Shown here: positions 40,412 through 62,991 of the stretch, one piece after another
Position numbering within the stretch: the stretch's first letter is position 1
How the letters are laid out: every line of letters starts with the position of its first letter
Program-made: the position numbers and the translations under genes
The notes under the pieces: model-generated
The model's database searches: none
What the model saw: the letters and a program-made list of their open reading frames with translations, nothing else
What the model was told of the DNA's origin: nothing
Source: Euphorbia lathyris
Taxonomy: Eukaryota; Streptophyta; Magnoliopsida; Malpighiales; Euphorbiaceae
Length of the DNA stretch: 64,000 bases
Direction of reading: 5' to 3'
NCBI RefSeq assembly: GCF_963576675.1
Contig: NC_088917.1
Location: forward strand, 17,760,001-17,824,000

Positions 40412-41553
40412 CTCTCACCACTCAACAACTTCCTCACCCATATATGATGCGGTTGTGTCAGATCACCCACTCTCTACCTAAACAACTCAAGACCTCATTG
40501 GATTACACTGCAAGATCCAGACTCCCTCATATTTATTGACAAACAACTAATGACTCCCTCTAAGAACTAGTATGTGATCCCATAAAAGAAACGAGACTCT
40601 GAGGAACCCTAACCACATGGTTCCTGGGACCACTAGCCAGCCTAGTACCATAGTTTGGTTTCCCCACACCAAAGCAACTTTTGACGACTCATTTACACCT
40701 TTGGAAGACATATTCTCAACACAAGTTTCCTTTAGAAAACAGATGAAACTGATACTAACAACTGAAATAACTACATTAGAGAACCAGTCCTCTTTGATAA
40801 CTAAAGGCAGCAAAGTTGCATATCATAAATCACATTAGAGAAGATGCACTAAATACCATAATAGCAGAGAGATGTCAAAACATGAATCACTATCCTAGAT
40901 TTGGGTAAAGATTTTGTGTAGTAAAGGAAAGGTACAAAAGTGGTCAAATCAAATCATAGTAAGCTCAAGCAAAAAGGAACAAAGAAGAAAGAAATCATGC
41001 ACAAAAGAAACAACACAATGTTTACACAAGAACCTTTTCATTTAACCGGTTGAAGTATTTCTTACAAAAATTTGGACCTCATTGGGACACCGATCCATAA
41101 GTGTACATTCAGAAAGTAGAACACCTAAGGGGAAATCCTAAGGCAATGCCTTAGAAAACACTAAAACTGATTCCATGCTATTGTAATCATAGGGTTCAAG
41201 TCAAGAACTTAACTCTTGGGAATCGAGAAGCCAGCCCCACGAGCCGCCTGCAACATTATTGCATGATCAACCAACACCAAGTTTTTTTCACATTTTTCGA
41301 TGAATGCTTTCACCGATTCAGCTTATTTCTTAACAACTTCATAGGTTACCTTTAGGGCATCTCTTTCCCCTTTAAAGATCATCACATTCACTATCCACAA
41401 TGTTAGCCTGCTTTAGCGCATCATGAAGAGCTCGCTCAAAAGATGCCTTATTCGAATCCTTTTCACTCTGAAGAGCGGATTGAACTTGCTCTAGCTTGAT
41501 CATAGTTTCCTTCTTAATAACTGCCCAAATAATCAAACCTTTCTTTCGGTACA
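40412..41553 (-). pseudogene. Unrecognised decayed coding-like region, left of E3
   Basis: The minus-strand frames are short. 41372-41608 (true part above 41554 excluded) reads as Lys/Glu/Gln-rich helix (LEQVQSALQSEKDS...ALHDALKQAN), likely coiled coil. A further piece near 41230-41370 reads VDHAIMLQAARGAGFSIPKS. It is interrupted by E3 and continues at 47736. Family not recognised. An antisense ORF of an old Tat element is one possibility, given the LTR at 50637. Confidence 0.35.
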
Positions 41554-43192
41554 TGATGCGGTTTCTGCGAAACCTCACTAAGGGATAAGTGTACCCCGTC
41601 GTTATCAAGTAATAAATTTCTGGTTTAAGTCCAGGTTATCGTCCACAGGATTTATTTCTGCAAGTATCAAGCTACTCGGTCTCGGATGTTATCTAGGCTT
41701 AGGGGGTTTTGAGTTTGGTTTGTTTAATTAATCTACTCCTAGGTTGAATTATGCTAATCCTAGCTAAGTTATCTAATTCTTAACTAAGTTATCTAATCCT
41801 AGCTAAGTTATTCTACGCCTAACTAAGTTACTCTACCCCTAATTGATCTTTCATTAATGAAACTATTCGAAGGAACATGGTATGAACGATAATAATCAAG
41901 ATAGATTATCAAGTCTATTGAATAAAAACCTAATCTGAGTCACTTGTATTCAAGGCGATTAACCCTACTTACCCTCCTGAGGTTCCTAGCGCGTGATTCC
42001 CTAAGGCCGAAACTAGGTCTAAGGCTCAGTAAATTGGCACTTAATCAACTAAGAGGTTGTCAATCTCCTAGGCTCTGACTAGGTCAGATTCAGCTCGCAA
42101 TATGTGCCTACTAGATTTTGAGGCTTTTGAATGAGTTAAACCAATTGAATAAAGCGTAAGACAGAGATTAGACAAATAATCATAGAACAAAACAAGAGCT
42201 AAATTGTTATTAAAGGCGAAGATAATTGTCACAAGATACAATAAGTCAAGTTCGGCAACTGTATCAAAGAGTACAAACATGGAAAGATAAAAGGAGATAG
42301 AAAAATCCCTTTCAGGGAACCTGTTTACTCTGCAGCCGGCGACTTGATCTTAAGGACGGACCTTGGTAATTCCTCGGTAGAAAGCTTTGAAGGAGCTTCA
42401 ATGGAGGTTGAGGAAGATGGAGAAGATGAAGAGGAATTACAAGGGGAAAGCTAAAATAATTTACAAAAACGAAAGATGTCTAATTTACATTGGAAAAACC
42501 CTATTTATAGACGCGGCTCGGCCCTCTTTTTGACCTATTTTCATGTCCCCATTGATGTAGGAAGTCGTGGGGTCCATCGTGGCTTCGTGGGGGCGGAATT
42601 GGTCTTTTTGACCAATTCTCGCAGGTCTGCTCGCCGAGCAGGGCGAGCTGCTCGGCGAGCAGGGCTACTCGCGACGAGCAGCGCCCTGCTCGGCGAGCAG
42701 GCCTCTGGTGGCCTGCTCGGCGAGTAGGCACAGTGCCTGGGCAGTGCCTGGGCAGTGCCTGGGCTGCTCGCCGAGCAGCGCGCCGATGCTCAATTCGCCG
42801 AGCGACTACCGGGGGTCCCCGAGACTCGATTTTTGCCTGAAATTGATCATGTTTTAACCTGCACACGCACATAAACTCCAAACAACATTAGTCCAAGGGC
42901 TAAATTGACCCGCCAATCGCTTATTTGAGCAAACGCTTCGTTTGGTGCGACTTTTGACGGATCAATTAGCTTCAAAAGATGACGGAATTATAATATGCAT
43001 GCCATTTTGGCCGTATTTGCCTAAATTGATAATAAAACGAGCCTAAACAACGAAAAGTAAATAAAACGTTTCCAATTTCTAACTAACTCACACAAAAGCA
43101 TTTAAATGCGAGAATTGCTCGCTTATTAACTAAATAACGCTAAAACCCGTCCTAAAACCGTACCTAAAGATAGGGGCTTTTGACCCCTATCA
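41554..43192 (-). repeat. E3 3' LTR
   Basis: 1639 bp from TGATGCGG to CCTATCA. On the minus strand a TATAAATAGGG box lies near 42500. The cluster at 42625-42790 holds several CTGCTCGGCGAGCAG-type palindromes and three CAGTGCCTGGG units. Purine-rich AAGTGTGAGGAGG (minus strand, 43193-43207) is the polypurine tract. Confidence 0.95.
42625..42790. repeat. GC-rich palindrome cluster in E3 3' LTR
   Basis: Repeated GCTCGSCGAGC cores (each self-complementary) and CAGTGCCTGGG direct repeats lie in otherwise AT-rich DNA. Ala/Arg-rich open frames on both strands here are artefacts of the repeat. Confidence 0.85.
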
Positions 43193-46058: not shown

Positions 46059-46063
46059 AAACT

Positions 46064-47730
46064 TGATGCGGTTTCTGCGAAACCTCACTAAGGGATAAGT
46101 GTACCCCGTCGTTATCAAGTAATAAATTTCTGGTTTAAGTCCAGGTTATCGTCCACAGGATTTATTTCTGCAAGTATCAAGCTACTCGGTCTCGGATGTT
46201 ATCTAGGCTTAGGGGGTTTTGAGTTTGGTTTGTTTAATTAATCTACTCCTAGGTTGAATTATGCTAATCCTAGCTAAGTTATCTAATTCTTAACTAAGTT
46301 ATCTAATCCTAGCTAAGTTATTCTACGCCTAACTAAGTTACTCTACCCCTAATTGCTCTTTCATTAATGAAACTATTCGAAGGAACATGGTATGAACGAT
46401 AATAATCAAGATAGATTATCAAGTCTATTGAATAAAAACCTAATCTGAGTCACTTGTATTCAAGGCGATTAACCCTACTTACCCTCTCGAGGTTCCTAGC
46501 GCGTGATTCCCTAAGGCCGAAACTAGGTCTAAGGCTCAGTAAATTGGCGCTTAATCAACTAAGAGGTTGTCAATCTCCTAGGCTCTGACTAGGTCAGATT
46601 CAGCTCGCAATATGTGCCTACTAGATTTTGGGGCTTTTGAATGAGTTAAACCAATTGAATAAAGCGTAAGACAGAGATTAGACAAATAATCATAGAACAA
46701 AACAAGAGCTAAATTGTTATTAAAGGCGAAGATAATTGTCACAAGATACAATAAGTCAAGTTCGGCAACTGTATCAAAGAGTACAAACATGGAAAGATAA
46801 AAGGAGATAGAAAAATCCCTTTCAGGGAACCTGTTTACTCTGCAGCCGGCGACTTGATCTTAAGGACGGACCTTGGTAATTCCTCGGTAGAAAGCTTTGA
46901 AGGAGCTTCAATGGAGGTTGAGGAAGATGGAGAAGATGAAGAGGAATTACAAGGGGAAAGCTAAAATAATTTACAAAAACGAAAGATGTCTAATTTACAT
47001 TGGAAAAACCCTATTTATAGACGCGGCTCGGCCCTCTTTTTGACCTATTTTCGTGTCCCCATTGATGTAGGAAGTCGTGGGGTCCATCGTGGCTTCGTGG
47101 GGGCGGAATTGGTCTTTTTGACCAATTCCTGCAGGTCTGCTCGGCGAGCAGGGCGAGCTGCTCGGCGAGCAGGGCTACTCGCGACGAGCAGCGCACTGCT
47201 CGGCGAGCAGGCACAGCCTGCTCGGCGAGCAGGCACAGTGCCTGGGCAGTACCTGGGCAGTTCCTGGGCAGTGCCTGGGCGGTGCCTGGGCTGCTCACCG
47301 AGCAGCGCCCGGGCTGCGCGCCGATGCTCAATTCGCCGAGCGACTACCGGGGGTCCCCGAGACTCGATTTTTGCCTGAAATTGATCATGTTTTAACCTAC
47401 ACACGCACATAAACTCCAAACAACATTAGTCCAAGGGCTAAATTGACCCGCCAATCGCTTATTTGAGCAAACGCTTCGTTTGGTGCGACTTTTGACGGAT
47501 CAATTAGCTTCAAAAGATAACATAATTATAATATGCATGCCATTTTGGCCGTATTTGCCTAAATTGATCATAAAACGAGCCTAAGCAACGAAAAGTAAAT
47601 AAAACGTTTCCAATTTCTAACTAACTCACACAAAAGCATTTAAATGCGAGAATTGCTCGCTTATTAACTAAATAACGCTAAAACCCGTCCTAAAACCGTA
47701 CCCAAAGATAGGGGCTTTTGACCCCTATCA
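46064..47730 (-). repeat. E3 5' LTR
   Basis: 1667 bp, TGATGCGG to CCTATCA. It differs from the other LTR mainly in the palindrome cluster (47135-47335), which has one more CTGCTCGGCGAGCAG unit and about five CAGTGCCTGGG-type units instead of three. Confidence 0.95.
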
Positions 47731-56387: not shown

Positions 56388-56392
56388 GATGT

Positions 56393-57132
56393 TGATAACA
56401 ACCCAAATTATTCTTGAATAAGGAATAAGGGAAAATTAATAGAAATAATGACAAACCATTATTCCTTCTAAAAGAGATATTTATACATGATTAATGTGGA
56501 ATTAATGATAATTAATGCAGGGGAGAATATGCAAATAATGAGGAAAAGGAAGGAGTTTCTAACATTATGCCATACCACGTGGACCATGGCGAGATACGCC
56601 ATAATGAGATACGCCCGATGAGAGCGAGTAGCGGAGACCCGCCATAGCTCTCAAGGAGAGCGTACATACGCCTTGACGGATCAAAGAATACGAAAAGGGA
56701 TATTCACCTTGAGAACGCCGCAAGAAGATCCGGATGGCGGATCTCCACGGTTCAGCTCAGTGAGATCCGCTGGCGAACCTATGAGGCGAATCTCCTCTTT
56801 CACCTGATTTATCACAGTAACGGCTAACCACCGACTCGGCCATAAAGACCATTAATGAGCTATCAATTAGCTAACCGCCAGGTTAAAGATAACCTGTAAC
56901 CGCCATTAATGGAGCATTAATGGAGACCTTCTAGTTGCTGAAGGTTACGACTTCCTAGCTATATATAGCCAACATCCCTAGGCTATCAAGGTACACTTTT
57001 ACTTACCCTTTGTCAATTCAGTTTGCTCTCTTGTTCTTCCTTACTGACTTTGGCATCGGAGCTTCCCCCCGTCGAACCCAACGACGCCCCCACAGGGACG
57101 GAAGACAATCGGAAATTCTCCACTAGTTATCA
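56393..57132 (+). repeat. E4 left LTR
   Basis: 740 bp, TGATAAC...GTTATCA, so its own two ends are also inverted copies of each other. TATATATAG near 56961 may be the promoter box. ATTGGTGCGGT, a primer-site-like sequence, begins at 57133. Confidence 0.95.
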
Positions 57133-58414
57133 ATTGGTGCGGTTAAGGTGGATCTCTAACAAACAGAAGATCACAAAATCTTGATTGTATAGAGTTTCAC
57201 AAAAAACAAAACAATGGAGTCAGTGGAATAGAAATCACAATCTCAAACTTTGGCTCAATCAGTACAACAAATCTATCCAAATATACAGTTCTCCATATAT
57301 TGGTAGGAAAGAGTTTTCTACATTGAATCTGGAATTTTATGATGAAAAAGATAAGTTTCCTCCCCTTTCTTATTCCATTTTTAATTTAAAAAAATTGAGA
57401 TCCCTCACTCTTATAAAGTGCTATGAATATTATTACATGTTATTATGATAAATCTAATAAACTGTGAAAGATGAAGTCATGGACACAAATCTTTCATTAA
57501 ATCTTGCATGCTTACTATATCCTCATATTTTTATGCATGACAAGTATAATATGATATTATCATTGAATTAGTACAAACGCATGTATAAGACCCGTAATCT
57601 TGGGATTTACAAAAGAAAAAAAGTCATCCATTCAATGTGATTTTGTCATTTGATATTAAAATATTATAAAAGGGCTCATGTAATTACAAATGATTTAGAT
57701 CTGGTCGGTCTTTTGGATGAACATGCATATAACTATTAGAAGAAATTACAAAAAAAATCATATTTGGTTTTTCCTTGTACAATTCACCATCTATATATGG
57801 CTTTTCTCCCATATAGTACTTTTAATATCAAAAATTCATATTTTTGAATATTGTTTTGTCAAACAGTTATTTCATTCCATTTTTTACAAGGATGTGTCTA
57901 TTCATATAAAAACTGTTTATTTGACATTGTTAGAATTTCTGTTACCAACACAAGAGACTTGAAAATATTGAGTCTATTTGTAATTATCCTGTAATTGTCC
58001 CTAACTATTAAGGCCGTTATGGGCTGATGAATTACCAAATTGGATAAACAAAACTTTCATATCCTGAGCTAACTACAAAATAGTGCAAGTGTCGGTTTCG
58101 GATCAGAACATTAATTTATGCAAAATTCTTAGGATATACATGAGAATTCCTTAAAGATTGGAGGATTGTATGTGAAGGCAGGTGAGAGCGGATTTTGAGT
58201 AATTTTCCTTACACTCCAAATTGGAGGAGAATCATGGTACATGTATTTTTCTTCCAAAATTACCCTTTCTCTTTTATTTTATTCGTACAAATGAAATGAT
58301 ATAAGAGTAATTTTATATGTAACTATATTATTAAATCATCACTTACCTTTCTTTAATTACACCTCATTCAAATGAGGCTTTAATGATCTCTGAATGCCAT
58401 TAATGTATGGATGC
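57133..58414 (+). repeat. E4 left leader arm with F-box/LRR-like fragment
   Basis: AT-rich, and repeated inverted at 60966-62246. The frame 57185-57448 includes EFSTLNLEFYDEKDKFPPLS followed by YSIFNLKKLRSLTLIKC. This resembles the leucine-rich segment of plant F-box/FBD/LRR proteins. It lacks an F-box and ends at a stop. The frame 57717-57962 is hydrophobic and not recognised. The arm end holds a small palindrome (CCTCATTCAAATGAGG). Confidence 0.6.
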
Positions 58415-59280
58415 ACAATATTAATTGCAACTAAATAGCAACTATGTAAGATATCTTGCCCAATATAGAATGTCATAACTTTTATGACGTTTAAAATAAA
58501 TATGCTATCTTGGATATTAATGCGCATTGAAATACAAAAGGATATTATTCTTAAACCATTCTCATTATGGTTATTTATTAAGAATTCATTATGATATTCA
58601 TGTGCAGTAGCAATCTTTATAGTTATGACCGTTATACGTGATATTATTATTAAAACAAGCACGATTAAAATTCTATTATGAATTTGTTTGACATATAATA
58701 TTTACTCGGTTTTATCCTTTGACTAAGTTCATTCTAGAGTCAGGGACCGACGAGAAGGAATTATTAAGTTGATTCCAAGATGAACTAAAAATTCCATAAA
58801 GAGAATTGCATCATACATGATATTTGCCAACAAGGCCAATGCAAACATTCTTTTGCTATGAAGTATGTTCCATGGATCAAGCCATTGATCCCCAAGGTAA
58901 GTGAACATAGCTTTTATGCCTTACCACAATCTTTTAATAATGGACAGAGTATGCCCCACTTCTGGAGTTCTTTCAGTGCTAACCCACAGGTACAAGGGAG
59001 TTGCTAATACTACAACCAGTGCAAACACTGATATGAAAAATAAAGCTCAATCCAAAGAAGTGTATATGCAGAGCCACTTCAGAAAAATTCATTGACTATG
59101 TCATTGGCCAAAAAGGTGAAAAGAGCGCCTAAATAAAAGCCATGCGAGGAAAAAGGTGAAAAGAGCGCCTAAATGAAAGCCCCACTATAGGTGAGAAAGA
59201 TCCAGAGGTTGAACGGGCGGATCATCGTACTAGAAAGATTGTCAACAAGCATATCAAGGTATAAAACAATTCCTAGCAGA
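58415..59280 (+). other. E4 core, left part
   Basis: 58415-58740 is AT-rich without a gene. 59105-59195 contains a duplicated ~35 bp unit (GAAAAAGGTGAAAAGAGCGCC twice, near 59114 and 59149). A weak gypsy-like character is possible but not supported by a clear motif. Confidence 0.4.
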
Positions 59281-59289
59281 ACCACCCTT

Positions 59290-59520
59290 GATGAGCAGAC
59301 CAATCTGAAGGGGAGACCTGCATTTGTATCAATCTGTCATGGATAAAGCTATATGCACCGTGGTTATTCAAGAAGAAGAAGGTCAGCAGTTCTCCATCTA
59401 TTATGTTAGCAAAATGTTGAAGGATGCGGAGACAAGATATCAGAAGCTAGATAAAATGGCTCCCACGGTTGTGACAACATCCATCCGCGTTAAACCATAT
59501 CTCCAAACATAACCTCAACA
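59290..59520 (+). pseudogene. E4 core: Tat RNase H fragment
   Basis: The frame at 59324-59512 reads MDKAICTVVIQEEEGQQFS, YYVSKMLKDAETRYQKLDKM and TSIRVKPYLQT, the RNase H that follows Tat reverse transcriptase. It lies 5' of gag and protease pieces on the same strand, the reverse of normal order. Confidence 0.75.
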
Positions 59521-60290
59521 TGATCGAGATCAAGATCAAGAACCGGCTTCACCATCATGATTCAACATTGAACACACAAATGATGAAATTGAAAGGCGAG
59601 TGTGTGCCGCTCTACATAGACAAGAGAACAATGCAGAAAGGTACGCCATCAAGTTAACATGAATTCGCCATTCACAGCACGGATCCTGGGGTACGAAGCG
59701 GACAGAATGTTTAAAGCTTCCAACTTGCCACAATATAAAAGAAAAGATTCAATATAAGCGGGACATTACATATCCCGAACCCAAAGGAGGGGAGCATGTA
59801 ACCATTTGAAGAAACGCCAAAGCGTACTACAGGTTGGCCACCATATTGGTTGACCACCACACTGAAGCTTGCTGGGAGCTGGCAAACTAGATAGCTTTGT
59901 CCAGAATAACAAATAACAAGACGACAAGCAGAAGACAGATCCCAAAAGTAAATCCAAAAGTGTCATTAATGTCATAGCAGATGGACCAGTGTATCAGCCA
60001 CCCGTGGAAAAAGCAAAAATATCAGCTCTGGATAAAACATCCCTCCATTGCTCCTTTTGCAGAAACAGGTCCAGTAATCTCTCCACATGCAGATGCATTG
60101 GTAGTAACAATGGCGATTCAAGGATGGGAGATAAAATAAAGTGAGTAAAGACACGGTCAGTTCTCGCAATGTCATCACCAAAGGTGCATTCGCCAAACTA
60201 AAGGTTGATCCGATCCAAATAGCAACAACCATTGTTGACATCATTGGAGTGACGGGTCACACTATCCAGACCAAGGGCCAGAGGTTGCAG
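59521..60290 (+). pseudogene. E4 core: Tat gag C-terminus and protease remnants
   Basis: In shifting frames, a gag-knuckle-like AKAYYRLATI...HHTEACWELAN lies near 59817-59890, ISPHADALVVTMAIQGW near 60074-60130, and a protease tail AFAKLKVDPIQI...GVTGHTIQTKGQ near 60188-60280. The order gag then protease is normal for Tat on the plus strand. Many stops are present. Confidence 0.65.
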
Positions 60291-60429
60291 CCCTAATTTC
60301 CATCCGTCGTCTGACAATGTACATTCCCACCAACAAATGAGGAGTAATGATTAGCGGGAACCAAAAGGTGGCTAAAGAGACTTATACTCGGCGTCACTAT
60401 CAATCAGCCCACAATCCAAAGAGGACGAA

Positions 60430-60700
60430 GGTGAGAAATATTAACTTGTCACTACAGCTTTGGGCGACACAGAAACGCTCCTTATTGCTGATGGAAAGCG
60501 GGTGCAGATCGTCAAAAGATTAAAACTTGAGATCCAAGAGGATGTTAAAAAAGTTCTCATTGAATCTGAAAGCATATTTACATAGGAGAATGAGATCCCC
60601 ACAGGAGTAAGCCCAGATGTGATTACTCATAAGTTAAACATCATTGAGGATGCGGTTCTAGTTGCTCAGAAAAGACGGAACCAAGGGCCTAAAAATCAGT
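60430..60700 (+). pseudogene. E4 core: Tat protease-RT junction remnant
   Basis: Reads LGDTETLLIADGKRVQIVKR, then ENEIPTGVSPDVITHKLNI, the conserved approach to reverse transcriptase in Tat elements. One stop is inside, and the sequence departs from coding after 60690. Confidence 0.7.
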
Positions 60701-60965
60701 ATTTTTACATATTCTTATATGTGCATTAAACTGTTATAGTATCCTACATTTTATAATTTATTCTTTCTCGTCATACTTCTTATATTCATTTGCCTAGCTT
60801 TTAGTGTTGAGTTACGCCCAGTGGCTGGCGAATGAAAAGTTCCACAGGCGGATCAATTACCTCAAAGATAGGACAATTGATCCCATCATGGGCGGATCCC
60901 CTTTCCACGTTCACCGCACCAATTGATAACTAGTGGAGAATTTCCGATTGTCTTCCGTCCCTGTG
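60701..60965 (-). other. E4 core, right part: primer site and 42-bp LTR end
   Basis: On the minus strand the last 42 bp of the E4 LTR (60965-60924) are followed by a primer site ATTGGTGCGGTGAACGTGG and a leader. The rest of this LTR is missing; the right arm starts at 60966 in its place. It is a third, partial LTR in the unit. Confidence 0.7.
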
Positions 60966-62246
60966 GCATCCATACATTAATGGCATTCAGAGATCATTAA
61001 AGCCTCATTTGAATGAGGTGTAATTAAAGAAAGGTAAGTGATGATTTAATAATATAGTTACATATAAAATTACTCTTATATCATTTCATTTGTACGAATA
61101 AAATAAAAGAGAAAGGGTAATTTTGGAAGAAAAATACATGTACCATGATTCTCCTCCAATTTGGAGTGTAAGGAAAATTACTCAAAATCCGCTCTCACCT
61201 ACCTTCACATACAATCCTCCAATCTTTAAAGAATTCTCATGTATATCCTAAGAATTTTGCATAAATTAATGTTCTGATCCGAAACCGACACTTGCACTAT
61301 TTTGTAGTTAGCTCAGGACATGAAAGTTTGTTTATCTAATTTGGTAATTCATCAGCCCATAACGGCCTTAATAGTTAGGGACAATTACAGGATAATTACA
61401 AATAGACTCAATATTTTCAAGTCTCTTGTGTTGGTAACAGAAATTCTAACAATGTCAAATAAACAGTTTTTATATGAATAGACACATCCTTGTAAAAAAT
61501 GGAATGAAATAACTGTTTGACAAAACAATATTCAAAAATATGAATTTTTGATATTAAAAGTACTATATGGGAGAAAAGCCATATATAGATGGTGAATTGT
61601 ACAAGGAAAAACCAAATATGATTTTTTTTGTAATTTCTTCTAATAGTTATATGCATGTTCATCCAAAAGACCGACCAGATCTAAATCATTTGTAATTACA
61701 TGAGCCCTTTTATAATATTTTAATATCAAATGACAAAATCACATTGAATGGATGACTTTTTTTCTTTTGTAAATCCCAAGATTACGGGTCTTATACATGC
61801 GTTTGTACTAATTCAATGATAATATCATATTATACTTGTCATGCATAAAAATATGAGGATATAGTAAGCATGCAAGATTTAATGAAAGATTTGTGTCCAT
61901 GACTTCATCTTTCACAGTTTATTAGATTTATCATAATAACATGTAATAATATTCATAGCACTTTATAAGAGTGAGGGATCTCAATTTTTTTAAATTAAAA
62001 ATGGAATAAGAAAGGGGAGGAAACTTATCTTTTTCATCATAAAATTCCAGATTCAATGTAGAAAACTCTTTCCTACCAATATATGGAGAACTGTATATTT
62101 GGATAGATTTGTTGTACTGATTGAGCCAAAGTTTGAGATTGTGATTTCTATTCCACTGACTCCATTGTTTTGTTTTTTGTGAAACTCTATACAATCAAGA
62201 TTTTGTGATCTTCTGTTTGTTAGAGATCCACCTTCACCGCACCAAT
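60966..62246 (-). repeat. E4 right leader arm (inverted copy)
   Basis: Reverse complement of 57133-58414 with few differences. It carries the same F-box/LRR-like frame (61931-62194) and the same hydrophobic frame (61417-61662), both identical in translation to the left copies. Confidence 0.9.
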
Positions 62247-62986
62247 TGATAACTAGTGGAGAATTTCCGATTGTCTTCCGTCCCTGTGGGGGCGTCGTTG
62301 GGTTCGACGGGGGGAAGCTCCGATGCCAAAGTCAGTAAGGAAGAACAAGAGAGTAAACTGAATTGACAAAGGGTAAGTAAAAGTGTACCTTGATAGCCTA
62401 GGGATGTAGGCTATATATAGCTAGAAAGTCGTAACCTTCAGCAACTAGAAGGTCTCCATTAATGCTCCATTAATGGCGGTTACAGGTTATCTTTAACCTG
62501 GCGGTTAGCTAATTGATAGCTCATTAATGGTCTTTATGGCCGAGTCGGTGGTTAGTCGTTACTGTGATAAATCAGGTGAAAGAGGAGATTCGCCTCATAG
62601 GTTCGCCAGCGGATCTCACTGAGCTGAACCGTGGAGATCCGCCATCCGGTTCTCCTTGCGGCGTTCTCAAGGTGAATATCCCTTTTCGTATTCTTTGATC
62701 CGTCAAGGCGTATGTACGCTCTCCTTGAGAGCTATGGTGGGTCTCCGCTACTCGCTCTCATCGGGCGTATCTCATTATGGCGTATCTCGCCATGGTCCAC
62801 GTGGTATGGCATAATGTTAAAAACTCCTTCCTTTTCCTCATTATTTGCATATTCTCCCCTGCATTAATTATCATTAATTCCACATTAATCATGTATAAAT
62901 ATCTCTTTTAGAAGGAATAATGGTTTGCCATTATTTCTATTAATTTTCCCTTATTCCTTATTCAAGAATAATTTGGATTGTTATCA
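62247..62986 (-). repeat. E4 right LTR (inverted)
   Basis: 740 bp, near-identical to the left LTR but in opposite orientation. The primer-site-like sequence lies on its inner side (62229-62246). Confidence 0.95.
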
Positions 62987-62991
62987 GATGT

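Follow-up and report, generated by a model that had tools for sequence, protein, structure and literature searches.

A near-palindromic LTR retrotransposon insertion in Euphorbia lathyris, probably formed from misprimed strong-stop cDNA

Introduction

DIRS-type elements have inverted termini that resemble long terminal repeats (LTRs), carry a tyrosine recombinase and leave no target-site duplication, and maize Mu killer, which derives from a DNA transposon, is a long inverted duplication whose hairpin RNA silences its family. Here we describe an insertion in a 64,000-nucleotide stretch of the Euphorbia lathyris genome (the window; C8:17760001-17824000 in an assembly of 1.02 Gb and 33 contigs), in which two retrotransposon LTRs face each other within one duplication of the target site. 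Like DIRS-type elements it has inverted LTR-like ends; unlike them it has a 5-bp duplication and a primer site of the transfer RNA (tRNA) type. With Mu killer it shares kilobase-long inverted arms of a mobile element.

For Ty3, a review describes plus-strand synthesis that runs into the tRNA, the accumulation of dead-end strong-stop DNA, and a primer site that is not inherited from the tRNA (PMC5371799). In the strong-stop transfer of Ty3 and Ty1, as outlined in that review (PMC5371799), the plus-strand product ends in a copied 3' part of the tRNA and is transferred by its 3' end, as we propose for the window. In the window, unlike in the Ty3/Ty1 transfer, the 3' end apparently primed on a plus-sense strand, which gave an inversion, and the product integrated. 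The titles and abstract beginnings that we searched on inverted or palindromic LTR elements, aberrant reverse transcription and strong-stop DNA contain no inverted-LTR insertion with a target duplication; a Dictyostelium paper among them has the words 'inverted LTRs' twice. The accessible part of PMC3187697 has no word starting with 'inver'.

We propose, with a probability of about 0.77, that the insertion is one integrated complementary DNA (cDNA) of a non-autonomous plant LTR retrotransposon, which became near-palindromic through two template switches during plus-strand synthesis.

Results

The insertion, 56393-62986, is a single unit between two copies of GATGT (Table 1); five flanking letters at a fixed place agree by chance with a probability of 1/1024. 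Its inverted arms (56393-58414 and 60966-62986), found with a repeat finder and aligned directly, show 15 substitutions and one gap over 2022 columns; 10 of these 16 differences fall within the 740 columns of the LTR and 6 within the remaining 1282. Identity is 99.2% overall and 98.65% across the LTR part, and because it extends over 2 kb at 99.2%, the inverted repeat did not arise by chance. On both sides the LTR is followed inward by AT and a primer site (57133-57152 and 62227-62246). Both finished ends bear TGATAACAA and differ at base 10. A sequence-only reading of this DNA had described facing 740-bp LTRs, each with primer site and leader inward and GATGT outside, and had noted that both outer ends are LTR starts and that both LTRs run TGATAAC...GTTATCA; alignment bore out its coordinates and these statements. 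Its suggestion that either end could be an integrase substrate is consistent with the sequence. The centre of the insertion, a point absent from that reading, is asymmetric: the right arm alone is adjoined, at 60904-60966, by a reversed third piece (43 nt of the LTR's unique 5' region (U5), AT and an 18-nt primer site).

Differences between the arms are about three times as frequent in the LTR as in the leader (p = 0.038).

Table 1. Parts of the inverted-LTR insertion, in window coordinates
Feature	Position	Strand	Remarks
Target-site duplication GATGT, left	56388..56392	.	
Left LTR, 740 bp, TGATAAC...GTTATCA	56393..57132	+	Ends match those of direct-LTR relatives
Left-arm primer-binding site TGGTGCGGTTAAGGTGGA	57135..57152	+	15/18 to commonest tRNA-Phe-like 3' end
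Left-arm leader	57153..58414	+	Collinear with direct-LTR relatives
Family interior in normal order	58415..60903	+	Broken RNase H piece 59309-59509; gag/protease/reverse transcriptase (RT)-like pieces about 59585-60726
TCCAC at junction J1	60904..60908	+	Interior (TCCAC/TCCAT in relatives) overlaps complement of primer-site end GTGGA
Inner primer site, reversed, TGGTGCGGTGAACGTGGA	60904..60921	-	18/18 to tRNA-Phe-like 3' end (CCA added), 16 listed places
Inner U5 remnant, 43 nt	60924..60966	-	Identical to LTR end
Right-arm leader	60966..62226	-	Junction J2 with U5 remnant at 60966, 1-nt overlap
Right-arm primer-binding site TGGTGCGGTGAAGGTGGA	62227..62244	-	16/18 to commonest tRNA-Phe-like 3' end
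Right LTR, 740 bp, inverted	62247..62986	-	
Target-site duplication GATGT, right	62987..62991	.	

We compared the insertion with its relatives in the genome. A primer-site/leader pattern matched 1027 places genome-wide at up to two mismatches (control, 0), of which 100 were listed. The primer-site pattern had no match in the microbial genome and viral collections. The 40 LTR matches scored out of 2468 candidates, a lower bound, comprise 22 in 11 pairs, each on one strand and spaced by 5 to 16 kb, together with the two of the window's inverted pair and 16 that stand alone. From these we read a sample of 17 + 7 genome stretches, which leaves out 10 of the 16 lone matches, and found in it no second inverted pair of the window's LTR. 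Most readable relatives have direct LTRs, in the order LTR, primer site, leader, interior, a 3' region of 1.1-1.7 kb, LTR. Direct copies such as L009-L016 and L023-L025 share with the insertion the LTR with its TGATAAC...GTTATCA ends, the primer site, the leader and the interior; of 11 direct elements, chosen for having both LTRs within one stretch, 10 are surrounded by a perfect 5-bp target duplication, the exception being L011, which is without its 5' tip. The direct copies differ from the insertion in their direct LTRs and in the 3' region, which includes a polypurine-like tract before the 3' LTR that is missing from the window. As for the other stretches, L003 is the same element as L009, the L017/L018 element is interrupted, L019 has a cut 5' LTR, and L020 and L021 showed one LTR each; the LTRs of L022/L029 and of L026/L027 are in direct orientation, each element spanning two stretches, while no match was seen in L028 or L030-L032.

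Apart from indels, window positions 56393-60903 follow the first 4.5 kb of the direct copies collinearly, and of the L009 3' region the window has only two weak matches, 64 and 52 nt long, at 60837-60906. Judged by its LTR, primer site, leader and interior, which are as in the direct copies, the insertion is a member of a putatively Ty3-like, non-autonomous LTR retrotransposon family. Some members have an expanded tandem repeat in the 3' region, with a unit containing AATGAAGCCTCGTCTTCATC (L027 4032-4961, L036 1830-2415). Among the 100 places listed, two pairs of primer sites face each other, C1:29874663(+)/29883674(-), 9.0 kb apart, and C1:87849037(+)/87851071(-), 2.0 kb apart; they are possibly nested insertions or inverted elements.

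The relatives allowed us to locate the turn. At 60903/60904 (J1), 15 distinct relatives read TCCACAAAG (8) or TCCATAAAG-like (7), and none reads like the window, which has TCCACGTTCACCGCACCA, the complement of the whole 18-nt primer site, then AT, TGATAAC and the rest of the 43 nt of U5. In the relatives this position carries TCCAC (L010, L011, L014, L022, L023, L024, L025 and L027) or TCCAT (L009, L012, L013, L015, L016, L018 and L019), followed by AAAG or AAAA. Homology to the arms stops at the 18th base of the reversed primer site, which is thus present in full. The overlap at J1 is 5 nt if the parent had TCCAC and 4 nt if it had TCCAT, and because of this overlap the switch point can be placed only to within the overlapping bases. 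The second junction (J2) joins the leader, ...GGATGC, to CACAGGG of U5, with an overlap of 1 nt.

Both junctions are single-copy. J1 at up to three mismatches occurs at seven places, the window being the sole exact one; of the others, L035, L037, L038 and L039 resemble the ends of LTRs from related families, each having a leader of its own, L034 is in normal orientation, and L036 is a second turn, on contig 3. J2, at the same threshold, occurs in the window only. This suggests a one-off event and not a propagating palindrome, and so answers, for these junctions, the genome check that the sequence-only reading had proposed, in which one copy would mean a single aberrant event.

The inner primer site differs from those of both arms. 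As query for tRNA-like sequences we used GTTCGATCCACGCTCACCGCA, which we take to be the 3' end of tRNA-Phe; it has 18 exact genomic occurrences, the commonest form, and 71 places at up to one mismatch (control, 0). Of these 71 places, 16 read ...CCACGTTCACCGCA and 2 read ...CCACGATCACCGCA. The inner site equals GTTCGATCCACGTTCACCGCA plus CCA, 18/18 to the 16-place form, while the 2-place form plus CCA equals the primer site of the contig-3 locus. The arm sites, ...CCACCTTCACCGCA and ...CCACCTTAACCGCA, match none of the 71 listed places, having at least two mismatches and so falling outside the one-mismatch search. The tRNA-like inner site, unlike either arm's, thus fits an end freshly copied from a tRNA, as far as its letters tell.

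At positions 12-13 the primer sites of the family take four recurrent forms, three of them identical to tRNA-Phe-like 3' ends (18, 16 and 2 places) and the fourth that of the window arms. We considered these recurrent forms as proof of inheritance from the element and dropped the argument, since three of the four main forms have tRNA-like genomic counterparts.

We next consider the parentage of the arms. The gap and 10 of the 15 substitutions, 11 of the 16 differences in all, are private to one arm. Conversely, twelve letters are common to both arms and occur in no other row of the alignment (11 against 12-28 lettered rows, and one inserted base). Together, the twelve arm-only letters and the 11 private differences point to one lineage followed by later mutation. 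The divergence of the arms is like that between LTRs of ordinary copies, as the identity of 5' and 3' LTRs in 12 direct copies is 98.65-99.6% (in one over 221 bp only), and corresponds at known plant rates to an age of 0.31-0.57 million years. The sequence-only reading was right that the arms are nearly identical, and its suggestion that they might be kept alike is superfluous.

The second opposed-LTR locus (L036/L042/L043, C3:3015687-3033970) begins with an 802-bp LTR on the plus strand (C3:3015687-3016488), whose primer site adjoins a reversed 3' region and interior of the family (3016502-3019125). A nested element with copia-like reading frames, recognized by eye, and LTRs 99.7% alike over 1272 bp starts at 3019126; beyond it, reversed interior, leader, primer site and LTR continue to 3033970. 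The locus turns (C3:3016482) on TCCACGA, a 7-nt complement of the primer-site end that is found in direct copies L012 and L014, L009 having TTCACGA. The contig-3 junction is single-copy at up to three mismatches. The locus may be cDNA of two co-packaged subfamilies or the product of a deletion between two elements.

Discussion

The above results are best accounted for by misprimed strong-stop cDNA. On the bottom strand, followed leftward from its right-hand end, a plus-sense strand made up of LTR, primer site and leader would have come first. At leader base 58414/60966 it would have switched to a minus strand, at the 5' end still joined to the tRNA, and copied from there the final 43 nt of U5 plus 18 nt of tRNA, as in plus-strand strong-stop DNA. 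Normally the resulting 3' end, GTGGA, would anneal to the minus-strand complement of the primer site. Instead, it may have paired with TCCA(C) in a plus-sense strand (60904-60908), a complement of 4-5 nt, so that synthesis would have returned along this strand, across interior, leader, primer site and LTR, as far as the end of the unique 3' region (U3). RNA would lack U3, and since U3 is part of what was copied, plus-sense DNA is the probable template. Second-strand synthesis would have left LTR starts (TGATAAC) at both ends, and integrase could then have inserted the molecule, duplicating GATGT. The anatomy, the two junctions and their single copies, the relatives, the target duplication and the match of the inner primer site to a genomic tRNA-like 3' end are all observed; we infer in what order the switches came, that the template was plus-sense DNA, that integrase was used and that priming caused J1. 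The contig-3 turn, of the same kind and on a 7-nt complement, counts in favour of mispriming. The sequence-only reading had likewise preferred aberrant reverse transcription or strand switching to two independent insertions; the normal order in the relatives, and a turn at which the whole 18-nt primer site stands on a 4-5-nt complement, bear this preference out.

Several points weigh against this explanation. The J1 overlap may be only 4 nt, as 7 of the 15 relatives, including L009, the closest sampled, have TCCAT. Four direct elements contain TCCAC 9, 8, 9 and 12 times and TCCA 37, 39, 48 and 48 times, so that a random turn would meet TCCAC with a chance near 0.0015 and TCCA with one of 0.006-0.007; since TCCA makes up 0.6-0.7% of positions in these relatives, the J1 match alone is weak. 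The overlap at J2 is 1 nt. The form of primer site found in the arms was beyond the reach of the tRNA search, and the 16 places that match the inner site are presumptively tRNA-like, by their 3' end alone. Two slightly different parents are possible, because both letters occur in relatives at five arm differences (56451, 56559, 56725, 58061 and 58150). On contig 3, the LTRs are of two subfamilies, with a common part of 200 bp at 87% plus stretches of at most 25 bp, and the flanks, AAAAT and GTTTT, show no target duplication.

Of the alternatives, the one that survives best, though we consider it unlikely, is that an ordinary direct-LTR element inserted with GATGT and was rearranged later. Replication-based template switching would then have made synthesis turn back at TCCA(C), duplicate the 5' arm in inverted orientation and rejoin the former right end via the 7-bp GTTATCA. 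Such repair usually leaves overlaps as short as those at the two junctions (4-5 nt at J1, 1 nt at J2), and GTTATCA, being on both LTR ends, permits rejoining at the LTR edge. However, of the three switches that this rearrangement requires, one would have to coincide with a full 18-nt primer site and another precisely with an LTR terminus, and the tRNA-like form of the inner primer site, which is in neither arm, is left unexplained.

It is considerably less probable that two insertions, independent or nested, later underwent recombination or deletion. The family is common enough for this (1027 places), and there are the two facing primer-site pairs among the 100 listed, but a single target duplication encloses the whole insertion and twelve letters are shared by its two arms only. 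In addition, crossing over between inverted LTRs should leave the outermost LTR unturned. We give still less credit to a palindromic retroelement that propagates as such. A broken interior together with young arms suggests that the family moves by the enzymes of others, which speaks for it; the interior is, however, also broken in direct-LTR copies, the 3' region with its polypurine-like tract is missing, and the exact J1 and J2 occur once each in the genome, palindromes with other breakpoints not having been searched exhaustively. An assembly artefact is the least credible, for although fold-back read chimeras yield inverted copies, the arms here differ at 16 columns, 11 of them private to one arm, the ends fall on LTR ends and a target duplication, and the centre is asymmetric.

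Misprimed strong-stop cDNA, if it is the right explanation, makes an error of the second strand transfer readable to within a few bases, beside normal relatives and in a product with a proper target duplication. The window element is an uncommon and unusually legible accident of an ordinary family. On this explanation, it would suggest a rule by which the turns of inverted-LTR insertions fall on complements of the primer-site end. It would also suggest that integration can make use of two U3 ends when the tips of the LTR are inverted repeats, and that a mobile element can give rise to a long-hairpin locus in a single step. A wider proposal, to which we give somewhat less than even odds, is that in this family the tRNA-copied 3' end of strong-stop DNA repeatedly misprimes on short complements of the primer-site end and so yields inverted-LTR elements, within one subfamily as in the window and across co-packaged ones as on contig 3. 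Turns would then be predictable from the TCCA(C) sites of the element, and loci of this kind could come to supply silencing RNA from long hairpins.

Coding remnants and other features

In the interior, the RNase H piece alone passed the Pfam cut-off, the gag/protease/RT-like pieces being identified by eye, and a protein search with it returned one 68-aa protein. The RNase H remnant precedes the gag-like pieces. This arrangement, upstream of the gag/protease/RT-like remnants and unlike the gag-pol order, was amplified in broken form (window 58415-60903; L009, L011 and L013). It is older than the palindrome, because it lies within the stretch common to the direct copies. A Pfam scan of seven pieces of the element gave no recombinase, and with GATGT duplicated we rejected a DIRS-like identity. 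We also rejected a captured host gene in the leader, where an 87-aa open stretch (57185-57445) looked leucine-rich-repeat-like by eye; Pfam returned nothing for it at E up to 1, and neither did a protein search.

Elsewhere in the window, 41551-43192 and 46061-47730 form a direct repeat of 1.67 kb at 96% identity, perhaps the LTRs of another element. A plant small nucleolar RNA and Agenet and ENT domains were also detected.

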